64,000 nucleotides of DNA from Pseudomonas chlororaphis (GTDB taxonomy: Bacteria; Pseudomonadota; Gammaproteobacteria; Pseudomonadales; Pseudomonadaceae): NCBI RefSeq assembly GCF_001921865.1, contig NZ_MSCT01000019.1, positions 496,001 through 560,000 of the forward strand, in the 5' to 3' direction. Of this stretch, positions 27,981 through 34,546 are shown in pieces (the first letter of the stretch is position 1; every line of letters starts with the position of its first letter). The translations under genes and the position numbers were made by a program. The notes beneath the pieces were generated by a model. It did not search any database. It was given only the letters and a program-made list of their open reading frames with translations, and had not been told where the DNA came from.

Positions 27981-28376
27981 GTTCGCAAGACCTGCAGGCG
28001 CCTAGGCGCGAAAGTCGAGTATACCACCGGCTCCGGACCGTTCAGGGCCCCGCCGGGAGAGTGAGTTCATCAGGCACGGATAGTGTCGAAGCTGCGCAAG
28101 GCTACAGAATATCCAGAGGATTCAAAAGACCATTCTGACCTGCGCCGCAGTTACCACACCGACCCCGAGCAATGGGAAATCCGCAGGGTTTTCTTCAGTC
28201 GATAATCCTCGGCATATCAATAAATTCAGTATGGGATTGCACACCTCATCAGATTCAGGAGGACGGCATCTCAGTCTTTTCTGATTTCTTCATGGATATT
28301 TTTTACGCAATTATTTGCATCGAATGCAGTTGCATCGCATTCAATCCAAACATCACCCAACACAGTGAGACTACTC
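27981..28376. other. Intergenic region before the small precursor genes
   Basis: These 396 bases shift from typical GC-rich sequence to AT-rich sequence after about 28170. An imperfect inverted repeat AATGC-N9-GCATT at 28323-28341 has the same half-sites as the one upstream of the heme receptor, but its core fits the Fur consensus poorly. A possible 84-codon frame at 28172-28426 overlaps the first precursor and lacks a ribosome binding site. No convincing gene was found. Confidence 0.45.
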
Positions 28377-28583
28377 ATGAAAGAACTGAACGAAATGGAA
28401 ATTGGATATATCAGTGGTGCTACTAATGAGTTGTCACCGGCAATACCGGAGTTCGGCTTCAATAAGGATAAGGTAGTGGGTATCACACCAACAGTTCCCC
28501 CAACAGGCTGCATATTCTGGAGGCCTGTCACCCAAGGGTCGATTGAAGGGCGTCCAGGCATTCCTACCTCCTGGTGGCGCTAA
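28377..28583 (+). CDS. Small secreted peptide precursor 1 (microcin-like, double-glycine-type leader)
   Basis: A 68-residue precursor. Residues 1-15 (MKELNEMEIGYISGA) form a double-glycine-type leader with hydrophobic positions and a final SGA. The leader is nearly the same as that of the next gene, and a C39-peptidase exporter lies downstream. The 53-residue predicted mature part is Pro- and Trp-containing with one cysteine (Cys45) and ends PGIPTSWWR, which loosely recalls the PEGIPSEAWN segment of microcin V. The ATG at 28377 is preferred to an upstream GTG at 28365 because of leader alignment. It could be a bacteriocin, a partner peptide, or a signal peptide. Cleavage after Ala15 is predicted only. 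Confidence 0.7.
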   Translation: MKELNEMEIGYISGATNELSPAIPEFGFNKDKVVGITPTVPPTGCIFWRPVTQGSIEGRPGIPTSWWR

Positions 28584-28695
28584 TACTCAAGCCTCACCTT
28601 AACGCTCATATAGAAGATGCAGGGTTTGCTGCTCCCCGGGAAACTCTCAAGTAGGTAAGACATCACTACTTTCCCTTCTAAAAAAGGTAGAACAG

Positions 28696-29001
28696 ATGAA
28701 AGAACTAACCAGCAGTGAGATTGAAGCTGTTTCCGGAGCCCTCTCGTTACAGGAGTCGATCGCCGGCAGTGCGATCGGCGCCATTGGAGGTAGCTGGGTC
28801 GGCGCCATCGCCGGCGGCAAATTCGGCGCAAGTGCCGGCGGCTGGATCGTCGGCGGTATCGCCGCCGGTGTCGGTATGCTCTACGGAACGGTTCTCGGCG
28901 GTCTCGGCGGTTTAATCGGCGGCGCCTTTGTAGGCCCTGACCGTGCCGTCGACATTGCGGTTGAAGCAGGCCGTATCCTGTTCGGCAATTCGAAGGTCTG
29001 A
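28696..29001 (+). CDS. Microcin-like bacteriocin precursor 2 (Gly/Ala-rich, double-glycine-type leader)
   Basis: A 101-residue precursor with leader MKELTSSEIEAVSGA (1-15), comparable to the MRTLTLNELDSVSGG leader of microcin V. The predicted 86-residue mature peptide is Gly/Ala-rich with repeated small-xxx-small motifs (AIGAIGGSWVGAIAGG and GGLGGLIGGAFVG), as in pore-forming class II bacteriocins, then a charged tail (PDRAVDIAVEAG) without the cysteines of siderophore-free microcin V. AAGG lies upstream of the ATG. A hairpin terminator follows. It is probably exported and matured by the downstream C39 ABC transporter. Confidence 0.8.
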   Translation: MKELTSSEIEAVSGALSLQESIAGSAIGAIGGSWVGAIAGGKFGASAGGWIVGGIAAGVGMLYGTVLGGLGGLIGGAFVGPDRAVDIAVEAGRILFGNSKV

Positions 29002-29486
29002 TCTACCCCTGTGCGTCTACCCAGCTGTAACAGGTAGACGCCTTCATCTTTTCGCCACAATAGATCATGGTTACTAATGACCGATTGTGATCTCTACATA
29101 ATCAAGTGCGGCATAACTCAACTCACGGATCACGCTGTATAAAAGACTACTTCCAACCGAGATATCGTTAGGCATCGAAAGACAGAAGCCAACAGTACCT
29201 CTCAAACACATCACCCTAGCATAAGAAACTAAAAGCAAAGACTGTCCATACCTAACTCACCTATACAAAACCAATATGGACGCCATCCTAGGCCAAAGGC
29301 ATTAAAGACATAAGTTCTCCTCACGACTAACCAGTACAACAGAAAAGCAATTCCCTAACAGAGCGTCTGCCAACTACGCAACCCTCTTACAGAAACAACC
29401 CCACTGATTGATAGCAACCCTAATTACATATTCTCGCCTCCTCATAACCACCGAACTTACATGCTCAATGACAGGACGTTCCCCCG
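29002..29486. other. AT-rich gene-poor region between precursor 2 and the export genes
   Basis: Apart from the terminator at its left end, these 485 bases are visibly AT-rich against the rest of the window and hold no convincing gene. A minus-strand frame of 46 codons (29074-29214, GTG start) is the only small frame with a protein-like look; it has no clear ribosome binding site. The promoter for the export genes should lie near the right end. Confidence 0.5.
29013..29050 (+). terminator. Terminator after precursor 2
   Basis: Perfect 9-bp stem GCGTCTACC / GGTAGACGC (29013-29021, 29033-29041) followed by CTTCATCTTTT. It would separate high precursor expression from the transport genes. Confidence 0.7.
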
Positions 29487-30758
29487 ATGACCCAAATGGC
29501 CTTGTTCCGCCAGGAGGCGCTCGACGCGCAACATGCCAGCGGACTGGGCGAGATCGTTCTGATCCGTCCCGTTTCCTTCTCGTTCCTGACGCTGCTGGCG
29601 ACAGCAATGGCTTTGATGGTCGTCGGATTTTTCCTACTCGGCAGCTACACCAAGCGCAGCACCGTCAGCGGCCAACTGGTCCCGGCCAACGGCCAGGTCA
29701 AGGTGCATGCTCCACAACCGGGCATCGTGCTGGAGAAGTTTGTCCATGAAGGCCAGAGGGTGAAACGCGGGGAACGCCTGATGATTCTCTCCAGCGAACG
29801 CTACGGCAGCGACGCAGGGCCGGTACAAGCTGGTATCAGTCGCACGCTCGAACAACGTCGCGACTCCCTGCGCGACGAGCTCGAGAAGATCCGCCGCCTA
29901 CAGGCGGACGAGCGCGACAGCCTGACCAGCAAGGTGTCCAGCCTACAACGCGAGCTCGCCACCCTCTTTGCGCAAACCGATAGCCAACAGCGCCTGCTGG
30001 CGCTGGCCAGCGATGCCGTCGAGCGTTACCAGGGACTGATGGACAAGGGCTACATTTCCATGGACCAGTTGCAACAGCGCCAGGCCGAACTCCTCGGCCA
30101 GCGCCAGACCCTGCAAGGCCTGGAACGTGAGCGCACGTCCCTGCAACAGCAGTCCACCGAACGCCGCAACGAACTAGCAGGCTTGCCGGCACGCCAGGCG
30201 AACCAGCTCGCGGAAATCCGTCGCCAGCTTTCGACCCTGGAGCAGGACCTGGCGGAAAGCGAGGCCAAACGCACGCTGCTGATCATCGCCCCGGAAACCG
30301 GGATCGCCACTGCCGTGCTCGCCGAAGCGGGCCAGACCGTGGACAGCTCACGTCCGCTGCTGAGTATCGTGCCAGCCGACAGCCCCCTGCAGGCGGAGCT
30401 CTACGCCCCGAGCAAGTCCATTGGTTTCATCAAGCCAGGAGACTCGGTGCTGATCCGCTATCAGGCCTACCCCTACCAGAAGTTCGGCCAGTACCACGGC
30501 CAGGTGCAATCGATCTCCCGCACTAGCGTGTCGCTGGCCGAACTGTCCAGCATGATCGGTGGTGTGCCGGGACTGGGCCAGGACGGCGAGCAGCTGTACC
30601 GCTTGCGCGTCAGCCTCGACCAACAAGCGGCCACCGCCTACGGGCAGCCTCGGCCGTTGCAGAGCGGCATGCTGCTCGACGCGGACATTCTCCAGGACAC
30701 CCGACATTTATATGAATGGGTGCTGGAACCGCTCTACAGCCTGACCGGCAAACTTTAG
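29487..30758 (+). CDS. HlyD/CvaA-family membrane fusion protein of bacteriocin exporter
   Basis: A 423-residue periplasmic adaptor with one N-terminal membrane helix (about 32-52), a lipoyl-like half (GQVKVHAPQPGIVLEKFVHEG), a long coiled coil (about 115-275, rich in Leu, Gln, Arg), the second lipoyl half and a beta-barrel domain (KPGDSVLIRYQAYPYQKFG). This layout is that of CvaA-type adaptors linking a peptide-exporting ABC transporter to TolC. It begins the export operon; the ABC gene starts 11 bp after its stop. The start ATG at 29487 has only a weak AGGA upstream. Confidence 0.9.
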   Translation: MTQMALFRQEALDAQHASGLGEIVLIRPVSFSFLTLLATAMALMVVGFFLLGSYTKRSTVSGQLVPANGQVKVHAPQPGIVLEKFVHEGQRVKRGERLMILSSERYGSDAGPVQAGISRTLEQRRDSLRDELEKIRRLQADERDSLTSKVSSLQRELATLFAQTDSQQRLLALASDAVERYQGLMDKGYISMDQLQQRQAELLGQRQTLQGLERERTSLQQQSTERRNELAGLPARQANQLAEIRRQLSTLEQDLAESEAKRTLLIIAPETGIATAVLAEAGQTVDSSRPLLSIVPADSPLQAELYAPSKSIGFIKPGDSVLIRYQAYPYQKFGQYHGQVQSISRTSVSLAELSSMIGGVPGLGQDGEQLYRLRVSLDQQAATAYGQPRPLQSGMLLDADILQDTRHLYEWVLEPLYSLTGKL

Positions 30759-30769
30759 GAAGCGCCAGC

Positions 30770-32929
30770 ATGGTATTTCTCGACACCCTCGCCCTGCGCC
30801 TGACGAGACGCTTGCCGCTGATACTGCAAACCGAAGCCACCGAATGCGGCCTGGCCTGCCTGGCAATGATTGCCGGCTACCACGGCTACCATACCAACCT
30901 GATGGAACTGCGCCGGCACTTCAGCGTGTCGCTCAAGGGCATCGCCTTGAAGCAACTGATCCAGACCGCGCACCGCCTGCAACTGGGAACCCGCGCGGTG
31001 AAGCTGGATCTCGGCGATCTGGGCAAGCTCAAGCTGCCGTGCGTGCTGCACTGGAATTTCAATCATTTCGTCGTACTGAAGGCGATCGACGCCCGCGGCG
31101 CCTTGCTCCACGATCCCGCTCACGGGCTGCGCCGGGTGAGCCTGGCAGAGTTCTCGCAAAGCTTCACCGGCGTCGCGGTGGAGTTCTGGCCGGACAGCGG
31201 CTTCGAGAAGCAACAAGCGCCGCCGCGGATCAAGTTGCTGGGCATGCTGGGCAAGGTCACCGGGCTCTACCGTTCGCTGGCTCAGGTTCTGTTGCTGGCC
31301 GGCGCGCTCGAGGTGTTCTCGTTGGTCAGCCCGTTCTTCCTGCAATGGACGATCGACAACGTGATCGTCAGCGCAGACCGCGACCTGCTCAGTACCCTGG
31401 TCATGGGCTTCGGCCTGCTGCTACTGATGCAACAGGCGGTCAGTGGGGTGCGCGCCTGGGTCATGATGCACATGAGCACCCTGCTCGGCGTGCAGTGGCA
31501 GGCCAACGTATTCAGCCATCTGCTGCGCCTGCCCATCCAGTATTTCGAGAAGCGCCATCTGGGCGACGTGGTTTCGCGCTTCGGCGCAGTGGGCAACATC
31601 CAGCAGACCCTCACCGCAGCCTTTCTCTCAGCCGTGCTGGACGGCCTGATGACCGCCGCCACCCTGGGCATGATGCTGCTCTACAGCCCACCGCTGGCGG
31701 CCATTGCTCTTGCCTCCATGAGTCTCTATGCCCTGGGCCGCTGGATCTGGTACCGCCCGCTGCGCAATGCCACCGAAGAGCAGATCGTGCACGCCGCGCG
31801 CCAGCAGAGCCACTTCCTGGAAACAGTGCGCGGCATCCGTCCGTTGAAGCTGTTCCAGCGCCAGGACGAGCGCCGCGCAGTGTGGCTCGGCCTGCTGGTG
31901 GAGCAGATCAACGCCGGCCTGCGCACGCAGAAACTGCAACTGCTCTATCAACAGATGAATGGCCTGCTGTTCGGCGTGGAGAACCTGCTAGTGATCTGGC
32001 TCGGTGCGACCATGGTAATGGACGGCCAATTCAGCGTCGGCGTACTGATGGCCTTCAACGCCTACAAGTCGCAGTTCGATGACCGCGTCGGCAGCCTGAT
32101 AGACAAGTTCTTCGAGCTGCGCATGCTGCAACTGCAGGGCGAGCGCCTGGCCGATATCGTCCTTCAGCCCGCGGAAAACAACCACGGCAATCTGGACCCG
32201 GGCAGCCTCGACGAACGCGAAGCGGGCATCGAGATACAGGGCCTGCGCTATCGTTACTCGGACCAGGAGCCGTGGGTGCTCGACGGCGTCGACCTACAGA
32301 TCGGCGCAGGTGAATCGGTGGCCATCGTCGGCCCTTCGGGCTGCGGCAAGAGCACCCTGTTCAACGTTCTGCTCGGCATCCTGCCGGCCAATGAAGGGCA
32401 GGTCCGCGTGGCTGGCCTGGAGCTCTCGCAACTGGGCCTGGATGGGCTGCGCGAACGGGTTGCCACGGTCTTGCAGGACGATGTGCTGTTTGCCGGCTCG
32501 CTCAGCGAAAACATCGGTTTCTTCGACCCGCAGGTGGACATGCCGTGGCTGATCCAGTGCGCGCAGATGGCCGCTATCCATGACGACATCCAGGCCATGC
32601 CGATGGGCTACAACACCCTGATCGGCGAGATGGGCACAGTGCTTTCAGGTGGCCAGAAACAGCGGGTCATGCTGGCCCGGGCGTTGTACAAGAAACCAAA
32701 AATTCTCTTTCTCGACGAGGCGACGAGCCACCTCGATGTCCATTGCGAACAACGGGTGAATGCCGCCATCCGTGCGCTGCGTATCACCCGCATCATGGTC
32801 GCCCACCGTCCGGAGACCATTGCCTCTGCGGACCGGGTCGTGGTCCTCGGCCAAGGCAAGATAGTGCTGGACGAAACCGCCGAGAGCCTGGCCGAACGCC
32901 AGGCCATGGCGGCGCAGGGGCAAGCCTGA
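30770..32929 (+). CDS. Peptidase C39 ABC exporter (CvaB-like) for double-glycine peptides
   Basis: A 719-residue bacteriocin-processing exporter. The N-terminal C39 protease holds Gln20, catalytic Cys26 (QTEATECGLAC), His99 (NFNHFVVL) and Asp115 (HDPAHG), so it should cut the leaders. A six-helix membrane domain follows (about 160-440), then an ATPase with Walker A GPSGCGKST (521-529), signature LSGGQKQR (from about 625) and Walker B ILFLDEATSHLD. The ATG at 30770 has TAGGAAGCG upstream; a longer frame from 30716 overlaps the adaptor gene. The TGA overlaps the next ATG (ATGA-type). It is the central evidence that the two small peptides are exported substrates. Confidence 0.95.
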   Translation: MVFLDTLALRLTRRLPLILQTEATECGLACLAMIAGYHGYHTNLMELRRHFSVSLKGIALKQLIQTAHRLQLGTRAVKLDLGDLGKLKLPCVLHWNFNHFVVLKAIDARGALLHDPAHGLRRVSLAEFSQSFTGVAVEFWPDSGFEKQQAPPRIKLLGMLGKVTGLYRSLAQVLLLAGALEVFSLVSPFFLQWTIDNVIVSADRDLLSTLVMGFGLLLLMQQAVSGVRAWVMMHMSTLLGVQWQANVFSHLLRLPIQYFEKRHLGDVVSRFGAVGNIQQTLTAAFLSAVLDGLMTAATLGMMLLYSPPLAAIALASMSLYALGRWIWYRPLRNATEEQIVHAARQQSHFLETVRGIRPLKLFQRQDERRAVWLGLLVEQINAGLRTQKLQLLYQQMNGLLFGVENLLVIWLGATMVMDGQFSVGVLMAFNAYKSQFDDRVGSLIDKFFELRMLQLQGERLADIVLQPAENNHGNLDPGSLDEREAGIEIQGLRYRYSDQEPWVLDGVDLQIGAGESVAIVGPSGCGKSTLFNVLLGILPANEGQVRVAGLELSQLGLDGLRERVATVLQDDVLFAGSLSENIGFFDPQVDMPWLIQCAQMAAIHDDIQAMPMGYNTLIGEMGTVLSGGQKQRVMLARALYKKPKILFLDEATSHLDVHCEQRVNAAIRALRITRIMVAHRPETIASADRVVVLGQGKIVLDETAESLAERQAMAAQGQA

Positions 32930-34329
32930 TGCGTGGGCCGGTCTGTCTGCTGCTCTGCCTTCTGGGCAGCGCCCCCTTTGCCACCGCCGAACCGGACGTA
33001 TTCGGTACCGCCGAGCCTGTCGTGTACGACCTTGGGACCGGCGGCCAGCTGTGCGTCTCCGGGTCGTTGCCGGCCGAACTGACCTTGGCGCAGGCCATCG
33101 AACGAATGCTCTGTCACGACCCGCAGACCCGTCTCGCCTGGGCCAATGCCAAGGTGCAGGCCGCGCAAGTCGGGATCGCCCGCTCGGCCTTCCTGCCGCG
33201 CCTCGACGGACGCCTGGAAAGCAGCCGGAGCGATACCCGCGTCGATTACCGAGACCTGCCCGGGCACTCCATCGACGGTCAGCGCCGACGCCGTGGGGCC
33301 AATCTCGAACTGAGTTGGGTACTGTTTGACTTCGGTCGGCGCAGCGCCGCCCTGAACAACGCCCAGCAGCTCTTGCTGGCAGCCATCGCCAGCCAGGAGA
33401 TGACGCTGCAGAACGGCTTCGCCCTCGCCGCCCAGGCCTACTACGATGCCCTCGCCGCGCAACGCAGCCTGACGGCCTCGCGACAGGTGACGGTACTGGC
33501 GGAACAGAATCTCGAAGCCGCCGATGCCAAGTACAAGGCCGGCGTCGCCGCGCTTTCCGATCGCTTGCAGGCGCAAACCGCCTTGTCCGAGGCGAGCCTG
33601 CGTCAGGTCCGTGTCGAGGGAGCTCTGCGCAGCGCCCTTGGCGTCATCGCGCTACGCATGGGCCAACCACCAGACACGCCTCTGCGCCTGGCCAGCGATC
33701 TGGAAACCCTGCCCGATACCAGTTTCGTCAAGGCCATCGACGAGCTGCTCGCCGAGGCCCGACGCGAACATCCGGCATTGCTTGCCGCCCAGGCGCGGTT
33801 GCAGGCCGCGGGGGCCGCGGTGGCGGAAAGCCGCGCGATGGGCCGACCGAGCCTGGCGCTGACCGCCAACCTGGCACGCAACCATAACGATCAATCGCTG
33901 ACGCTCAATGGCGATACCCGCGAGTACGATCGCAGCATCGGCCTGCAACTGAAGATCCCCCTGTTCGAAGGCTTCGAGCGTAACTATCAGGTACGAAATG
34001 CCCTGGCCCGCCAGGAGGCCAGCCAGCTGGAGCTGGCCGATACCGAGCAGCAGGTATCGCTGGAGGTCTGGAGCAACTACCAGTCACTGAGCACGGAAAC
34101 CCGCAGCCTGAGGCGCACCCGCGAGTTGGTCGAGCAGTCGCGGCAAAGCCTGGAGGTGGTGCAGGGGCGCTATCGCTCGGGAGTCGGCAGCATGATCGAA
34201 CTGCTGAACACCCTGACCGCCTACGCCAGTGCCGAGGAGCAACATATCCAGGCCCTCGGCAACTGGCAGACCTCCCGCCTGCGTTTGGCGGCAAGCCTCG
34301 GCCGCCTGGGATTCTGGGCGCTGCCCTGA
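32929..34329 (+). CDS. TolC-family outer membrane factor of the bacteriocin exporter
   Basis: A 466-residue outer membrane channel protein with a signal peptide (LLLCLLGSAPFATAEP, cleavage near residue 20), two TolC repeats of paired long helices (starting LTLAQAIERMLCHDPQTRLAWANAKVQAAQ), and the conserved second half (REHPALLAAQARLQAAGAAV; IPLFEGFERNYQVRNA). The ATG at 32929 overlaps the ABC stop (TGATG), showing translational coupling. Having its own dedicated TolC makes the locus a complete type I export unit; colicin V in E. coli uses the chromosomal TolC instead. Confidence 0.92.
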   Translation: MRGPVCLLLCLLGSAPFATAEPDVFGTAEPVVYDLGTGGQLCVSGSLPAELTLAQAIERMLCHDPQTRLAWANAKVQAAQVGIARSAFLPRLDGRLESSRSDTRVDYRDLPGHSIDGQRRRRGANLELSWVLFDFGRRSAALNNAQQLLLAAIASQEMTLQNGFALAAQAYYDALAAQRSLTASRQVTVLAEQNLEAADAKYKAGVAALSDRLQAQTALSEASLRQVRVEGALRSALGVIALRMGQPPDTPLRLASDLETLPDTSFVKAIDELLAEARREHPALLAAQARLQAAGAAVAESRAMGRPSLALTANLARNHNDQSLTLNGDTREYDRSIGLQLKIPLFEGFERNYQVRNALARQEASQLELADTEQQVSLEVWSNYQSLSTETRSLRRTRELVEQSRQSLEVVQGRYRSGVGSMIELLNTLTAYASAEEQHIQALGNWQTSRLRLAASLGRLGFWALP

Positions 34330-34408
34330 ATGAGCATGGACCTGAAACCGCTGAAAAGGCGCCATTGCCAGACTGAACGAGCAAGGTGTGCCAGGGCTTT
34401 TCTGCAGG

Positions 34409-34470: not shown

Positions 34471-34546
34471 TGGTGGGTCGTGTGGGATTCGAACCTACGA
34501 CCAATTGGTTAAAAGCCAACTGCTCTACCAACTGAGCTAACGACCC
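34471..34546 (-). tRNA. tRNA-Lys (anticodon TTT)
   Basis: The minus strand reads GGGTCGTTAGCTCAGTTGGT at the 5' end, with anticodon loop CTTTTAA, the T-arm GGTTCGAATCC and a perfect 7-bp acceptor stem ending ACGACCC, plus encoded CCA. Total 76 nt. Its 3' end faces the microcin-like locus. tRNA-Lys genes are integration sites for Pseudomonas islands such as PAPI-1/pKLC102. Confidence 0.97.

Follow-up and report, generated by a model that had tools for sequence, protein, structure and literature searches.

What is made from the small gene at 28377–28583: a toxin, one partner of a two-peptide pair, or a signal? From sequence these three roles are inseparable; our reading, held with somewhat better than even confidence, is that the gene product, P1, gives rise to a bacteriocin-type peptide, secreted and probably unmodified, in a cassette with two precursors, of which the other is P2. 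The neighbouring genes encode a pump that almost certainly trims P1 and exports it. Throughout, the window denotes the whole 64,000-nucleotide stretch of Pseudomonas chlororaphis DNA that was analysed.

P1 is a double-glycine precursor with a Pro/Trp-rich core

The first-pass annotation had described an ORF at 28377–28583 with a Pro/Trp core, and this description stands: the coordinates (forward strand, stop codon included) are correct, and the ORF encodes 68 amino acids with a single Cys and the end RPGIPTSWWR, namely a 15-amino-acid leader, MKELNEMEIGYISGA, followed by a 53-amino-acid Pro/Trp-rich core, TNELSPAIPEFGFNKDKVVGITPTVPPTGCIFWRPVTQGSIEGRPGIPTSWWR. The leader (28377–28421, forward strand) has the consensus residues L−12, E−8, I−7, I−4, G−2 and A−1, with cleavage predicted after Gly-Ala; class II microcin leaders are 15–18 amino acids long with hydrophobic residues at −4, −7 and −12, and P1 presents I−4, I−7, L−12 and Gly-Ala. 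A search of the window for leaders with a double-glycine motif, hydrophobic residues at −12, −7 and −4 and Glu at −8 returned exactly two ORFs, P1 and P2, and dinucleotide shuffles (n = 40) gave an average of 0.025, a chance rate that applies to this 64-kb window only. An in-frame GTG at 28365 is an alternative start for P1; we favour the ATG at 28377 because a GTGAG element lies 7 nt before it, and this element is found as well in a second Pseudomonas species, G362, and in P. aeruginosa PA7.

The core contains 8 Pro, 3 Trp and 1 Cys. The mature peptide is predicted to have 53 residues, a pI of 7.9 and a mass of 5.8 kDa, inside the class II microcin size range of about 5–10 kDa; it is weakly cationic or nearly neutral, with no acidic residue beyond Glu57. 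The contrast with P2 that had been drawn at first reading also holds, as the core of P1 is 11% Gly (11.3%) and that of P2, with its GxxxG repeats, is 28% (27.9%), on either side of the 12–26% range of class II microcins (PMC11494933), with P1 just under it. Searches of Pfam, NCBIfam and the PDB with P1 gave only spurious repeat hits (the PDB matches were rejected as summed weak matches to repeat proteins), and its PHROGs matches are all weak. AlphaFold, given two sequences, predicted no fold (mean pLDDT 47).

P1 and P2 lie ahead of a C39 exporter in a compact cassette

P2 (28696–29001, forward strand) is a 101-amino-acid double-glycine precursor with the leader MKELTSSEIEAVSGA and a Gly-rich, glycine-zipper core, in which GxxxG repeats occupy residues 24–48 and 60–80. 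It matches the microcin V family (PF17508) at 0.0095, below the cut-off; P1 gives no match. The two genes are probably co-transcribed, since they are 112 bp apart, ahead of a conserved hairpin (29013–29050, forward strand) that has a 9-bp stem followed by a T-rich tail. This hairpin, a likely terminator of the P1–P2 transcript, was found by folding (−14.5 and −18.8 kcal/mol) and was not reported by a generic terminator scan; because it is T-tailed, follows P2 and is conserved in G362, it suggests that P1 and P2 form a transcript of their own. Downstream, the gap between P2 and the exporter genes (29000–29486) is AT-rich (45% GC), strongly C-biased and has no conserved ORF; it aligns well with G362 and may, on that account, hold a regulatory region.

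Upstream of P1, a repeat scan revealed a 14-bp direct repeat (TTGCATCGAATGCA/TTGCATCGCATTCA) with an overlapping inverted repeat, GAATGC...GCATTC (28315–28343, forward strand), a candidate operator 34 bp before the gene. The pattern occurs once in the genome, its inverted repeat is intact in G362, and part of the element can be aligned before the gene of a Pro/Trp peptide in PA7 at an equal distance from the ATG; it is a possible regulator site. Near P1, no Rfam element was found, nor did a promoter scan find a sigma-70-type promoter.

Three export genes follow on the forward strand: an HlyD-type membrane-fusion protein of a type I exporter (29487–30758; PF13437, 1.8e-16; TIGR01843, 6.2e-44, under that model's curated cut-off), a Peptidase C39-ABC transporter (30770–32929; PF03412, 8e-37; PF00664; PF00005) with intact catalytic Cys26, His99, Asp115 and Gln, and a TolC-type outer-membrane factor (32929–34329; PF02321, 7e-51; TIGR01844, 4.8e-50, under that model's curated cut-off). 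P1 therefore has near it, as class II microcins do, a membrane-fusion protein and a C39 exporter with catalytic Cys, His and Asp. With a total of six C39 matches, the window's genome encodes further exporters.

The limits of the cassette were set by an empty site. In four close relatives (L148, L150, L152 and L154) nadA, ending at window 28142–28146, lies no more than about 40 bp from the tRNA-Lys side, and the sequence resumes near window 34403. Because of this we take the insert to be 28143–34402 (forward strand), about 6.26 kb between nadA and tRNA-Lys(TTT), which ARAGORN places on the reverse strand at 34471–34546, just past the right edge. Within it the only recognisable genes are P1, P2 and the three export genes. 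No integrase was found in the cassette, nor was a sensor kinase or regulator. There is also no candidate immunity gene: comparison with G362 revealed no third conserved ORF in 28135–29487, and none was found elsewhere in the cassette.

The cassette is rare and its genes occur together

The distribution of P1 was assessed in 399 Pseudomonas species, the window's own included. Only one of the 398 others, G362, has a clear P1 match, and P1 and P2 are clearly matched in the same two of the 399 species (the window's genome and G362), with the exporter present both times; a close fusion protein occurs in nine of the 399. No further P1 turned up when 294 relatives from 81 genera were sampled as well, and no relatives were found in viral contigs, plasmids or phages. 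Weak P1 matches in many Pseudomonas genomes (E 0.001–1) were set aside as chance, judging by their E-values, short alignments and frequent internal stops.

Two expectations attached to P1 by the first-pass annotation, a conserved GIPxxW end and constant co-occurrence of the two precursor genes, agree with these data. The sole clear homologue retains GIPxSWWR, as part of a longer conserved stretch, CIFWRPVTQGxxEGRPGIPxSWWR, and P1, P2 and exporter are together in both genomes, although two is a small number. This co-occurrence supports the proposal that P1 is a second precursor sharing the C39 exporter.

In G362 the cassette also adjoins tRNA-Lys; its left neighbour differs, being an AraC-type regulator by its sequence, and homology to the window begins at 28135, near the boundary that the empty site defines. 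By its flanks, the G362 cassette is an independent insertion context. Given the empty site, the G362 copy, the leader and the exporter, we count the cassette as moving together; P1 belongs to the broad class of double-glycine substrates of C39 type I exporters, with leader and cognate exporter moving as one unit. As judged from these comparisons, the P1 locus is a compact mobile two-precursor cassette. At a second exporter of the same family, G362 encodes another small leader peptide (L123, 6123–6347; MRDLNAVEIEEVSGA...).

The P1 core changes faster than the rest of the cassette

Between the window and G362, P2 and the export genes are 95–98% identical at the protein level, and P1 only 78–80%. 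The changes in P1 are unevenly placed. The leader has two synonymous and no nonsynonymous changes; in the core, some 14.5 nonsynonymous changes stand against about 3.5 synonymous ones (dN/dS about 1.4), together with a 6-nt (2-codon) in-frame indel that leaves the frame and the stop position as they were. Within the core, the N-terminal half (residues 16–44; 28422–28508, forward strand), which contains the indel, has a dN/dS of 1.6, and the more conserved C-terminal 24 residues (45–68; CIFWRPVTQGSIEGRPGIPTSWWR; 28509–28580, forward strand), of which 21 are identical in G362, have a dN/dS of 0.9. Over whole genes dN/dS is 0.76 for P1 and 0.42 for P2, against 0.08–0.17 for the export genes, and the element upstream of P1 is well conserved. 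With 18 substitutions in the core, dN does not exceed dS significantly, and relaxed constraint would give the same picture, but the core differs greatly from the remainder of the cassette. Selection on the N-terminal half of the core would appear to be either diversifying or relaxed. A fast core behind an unchanged leader, with a constrained exporter, is the pattern that would be expected of a bacteriocin-type arms-race gene.

Related exporters accompany varied leader peptides

The exporter of P. aeruginosa PA7 is about 90% identical to that of the window at the protein level. Just before its fusion-protein gene is a leader peptide (L032, 6190–6411) with the leader MELLNESEMENVAGG and a 58-residue Pro/Trp-rich core. 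Its 5′ region can be aligned to that of P1 from about −72 to +26 with a score of 20, reached in none of 2000 shuffles; for the upstream part alone, 6 of 2000 shuffles did as well, and among 1566 places in the PA7 locus this one ranks first. Like P1, the PA7 peptide has a 15-amino-acid leader and a Pro/Trp-rich core and precedes a close exporter; unlike P1, it has four Cys and a different partner peptide, and its core cannot be aligned to P1 above shuffles. This combination suggests, and does not prove, that the PA7 peptide occupies the gene slot of P1 with a replaced or strongly diverged core. About 2.2 kb, including a large ORF, separates the two leader peptides of PA7; the other one (L032, 3736–4035) is membrane-like, and a similar one is found in Acinetobacter (L061, 4265–4603).

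More broadly, the double-glycine peptides found beside exporters of this family are highly diverse, and several are rich in Pro. Pro-rich leader peptides lie near related exporters in Collimonas, P. cerasi and a Sterolibacterium MAG; that of a Collimonas MAG (L040, 585–743) lies just before the exporter and has a very Pro-rich core, CFWFSYFRSWRPAPQRNCIRPTPPTPPKPPVPVVP. We rejected homology of the P1 core with the Pro-rich peptides of PA7, Collimonas and P. cerasi, as the similarity was not above that of composition shuffles. Other loci look different. In Mitsuaria (L096, 6604–7847) there is a series of short ORFs with a leader-like sequence and then P(Q/E)VxND, a motif sometimes repeated within an ORF. 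An exporter 85–87% identical to that of the window, in G540 (L138), has no recognisable leader peptide in the 3.5 kb upstream. In four species of PA7's genus (L139, L140, L141 and L142) the exporter, with its C39 residues intact, has no small leader peptide upstream and follows the apparent end of a larger, glycine/aspartate-rich ORF, suggesting that its cargo is a large protein.

Proposed function and alternatives

In the mechanism that we propose, the C39 exporter would cut P1 after Gly14-Ala15 and the 53-residue peptide would leave the cell through the channel of the membrane-fusion protein and outer-membrane factor. P2 would be exported in the same way; it is of the glycine-zipper type that inserts into membranes and is the likelier membrane-active partner of P1. 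Most likely the system serves to compete against other bacteria through a presumed antibacterial action, in which P1 would either kill alone or supply target recognition for P2, its conserved Trp/Pro C-terminus forming the constant recognition part. We favour a bacteriocin function because the P1 core diversifies and P2 is a glycine-zipper peptide. Also on its side are a leader found well above chance, an intact exporter, a bounded cassette, co-occurrence in two of two genomes, the likeness of P2 to the Cdz proteins of Caulobacter and the varied peptides beside related exporters; against it stand the lack of an immunity-like ORF, a Gly content of 11%, a charge that is not strongly cationic, a dN > dS that is not significant, a single homologue and no predicted fold. 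The missing immunity gene tempers this reading, as in class II microcins such a gene is normally found next to that of the precursor (PMC10233263). It is not fatal, since Bacteroides double-glycine bacteriocins without an immunity gene are mentioned (PMC10233263).

A specific form of the bacteriocin reading, which we hold only tentatively, is a split two-peptide system in which P2 is the membrane-active toxin and P1, inactive alone, is its partner for receptor recognition or delivery, so that the pair would share out the tasks of the two halves of a single class II microcin. The pairing of P1 and P2 in two of two genomes, their adjacency ahead of a shared conserved hairpin, the dissimilarity of the two peptides (P2 a Gly zipper, P1 of Trp/Pro type), and the faster evolution of P1 all speak for it, as does the finding that microcin V uses only its C-terminal 32 residues for receptor binding (PMC12511343); killing by two type I exported proteins is known in Gram-negatives (Cdz, PMC5380434). 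Only two loci are known, however, and the leader peptides of PA7 lie far apart around a large ORF. In the two-peptide pairs known so far, each member usually acts on membranes, and P1 does not have the look of such a peptide. The fullest version, a split Gram-negative bacteriocin of a glycine-zipper toxin and a fast-evolving Trp/Pro recognition part that share one C39 pump, need no dedicated immunity protein and are represented in PA7 by the same slot with a swapped core, is a more doubtful proposition.

Double-glycine peptides act as pheromones in Gram-positives, and P1 could be such a signal, leaving through the same pump and controlling P2 production or another density response. The lack of an immunity gene and the unique repeat element just upstream of P1 would suit this role, yet the cassette has no sensor kinase or regulator, and a signal's core is expected to be constrained when that of P1 has the highest dN/dS in the cassette; we consider it unlikely. 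We give even less credence to a peptide that promotes autolysis or acts in the surface or biofilm of its producer and is not a weapon against others. The lack of an immunity gene would suit this role too, and gonococcal Nap double-glycine peptides act by promoting autolysis, with no killing of competing species (PMC11798529); the Naps, however, are cationic and come with NapI, which resembles a bacteriocin immunity protein (PMC11798529), P1 is nearly neutral, and a rare mobile cassette with a diversifying core fits conflict between strains better. It is very improbable, finally, that P1 is a decaying remnant of a former precursor and that its core has ceased to matter. A core dN/dS near 1 and only two known copies are what decay might leave, but the leader protein is unchanged, the indel is in frame, frame and stop are kept, 21 of the last 24 residues are identical and the element upstream is well conserved.

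Validated class II microcins are few, and almost all of them come from enterobacteria. A Pro/Trp-rich, fast-evolving precursor in a compact Pseudomonas cassette with no immunity gene is of a type that would probably escape existing microcin searches, which are geared to Gly-rich cores and to microcin profiles. If active, it would offer a testable case of separate recognition and killing functions, and one of producer survival without an immunity protein.

Comparison with known systems

By composition only, P1 recalls the proline-rich and Trp-rich antimicrobial peptides of animals, a resemblance that we presume to lie in its Arg-Pro and Trp-Trp-Arg motifs; its positive charge is weak, its origin and export are different, and we claim no homology. 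A link to microcin V through the GIPxxW string, raised at first reading, is not borne out, and we rejected the string as evidence of homology: there is no family or structure match, and the string, which appears in 0.5% of composition shuffles of the P1 core, was noticed after the fact and carries little weight. Microcin V binds its receptor Cir through its last 32 residues, with the key contact elsewhere than in this string, at Asp85 near the C-terminus (PMC12511343). P1 has neither an Asp85-type contact nor the Cys pair; with a single Cys, it cannot form an intramolecular disulfide.

The class IIa microcins (microcin V, L, N and PDI; Acinetobacter Mcc17978) share with P1 a double-glycine leader, a co-located C39 exporter, a membrane-fusion protein and a mature size of 5–10 kDa. 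P1 differs in its lower Gly content, its one Cys, its lack of a family-model match and the absence of an immunity gene from the cassette, which has in addition two precursors of different character and its own outer-membrane factor. Because the cassette contains no adjacent immunity protein, we do not claim that P1 is a class II microcin. The Bacteroides bacteriocins resemble P1 in being Gram-negative, with a double-glycine motif and no immunity gene, a likeness drawn by description and across phyla.

In the Cdz system of Caulobacter, two type I exported proteins with glycine zippers, CdzC and CdzD, are responsible for killing and CdzI provides immunity (PMC5380434). The cassette has no ORF that is a candidate for a CdzI-type immunity protein. 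Like Cdz, it encodes a pair of small precursors with leaders and a type I exporter dedicated to them, and P2 has GxxxG repeats as CdzC and CdzD do; whereas both Cdz proteins carry glycine zippers, here P2 carries one and P1 is instead Pro/Trp-rich.
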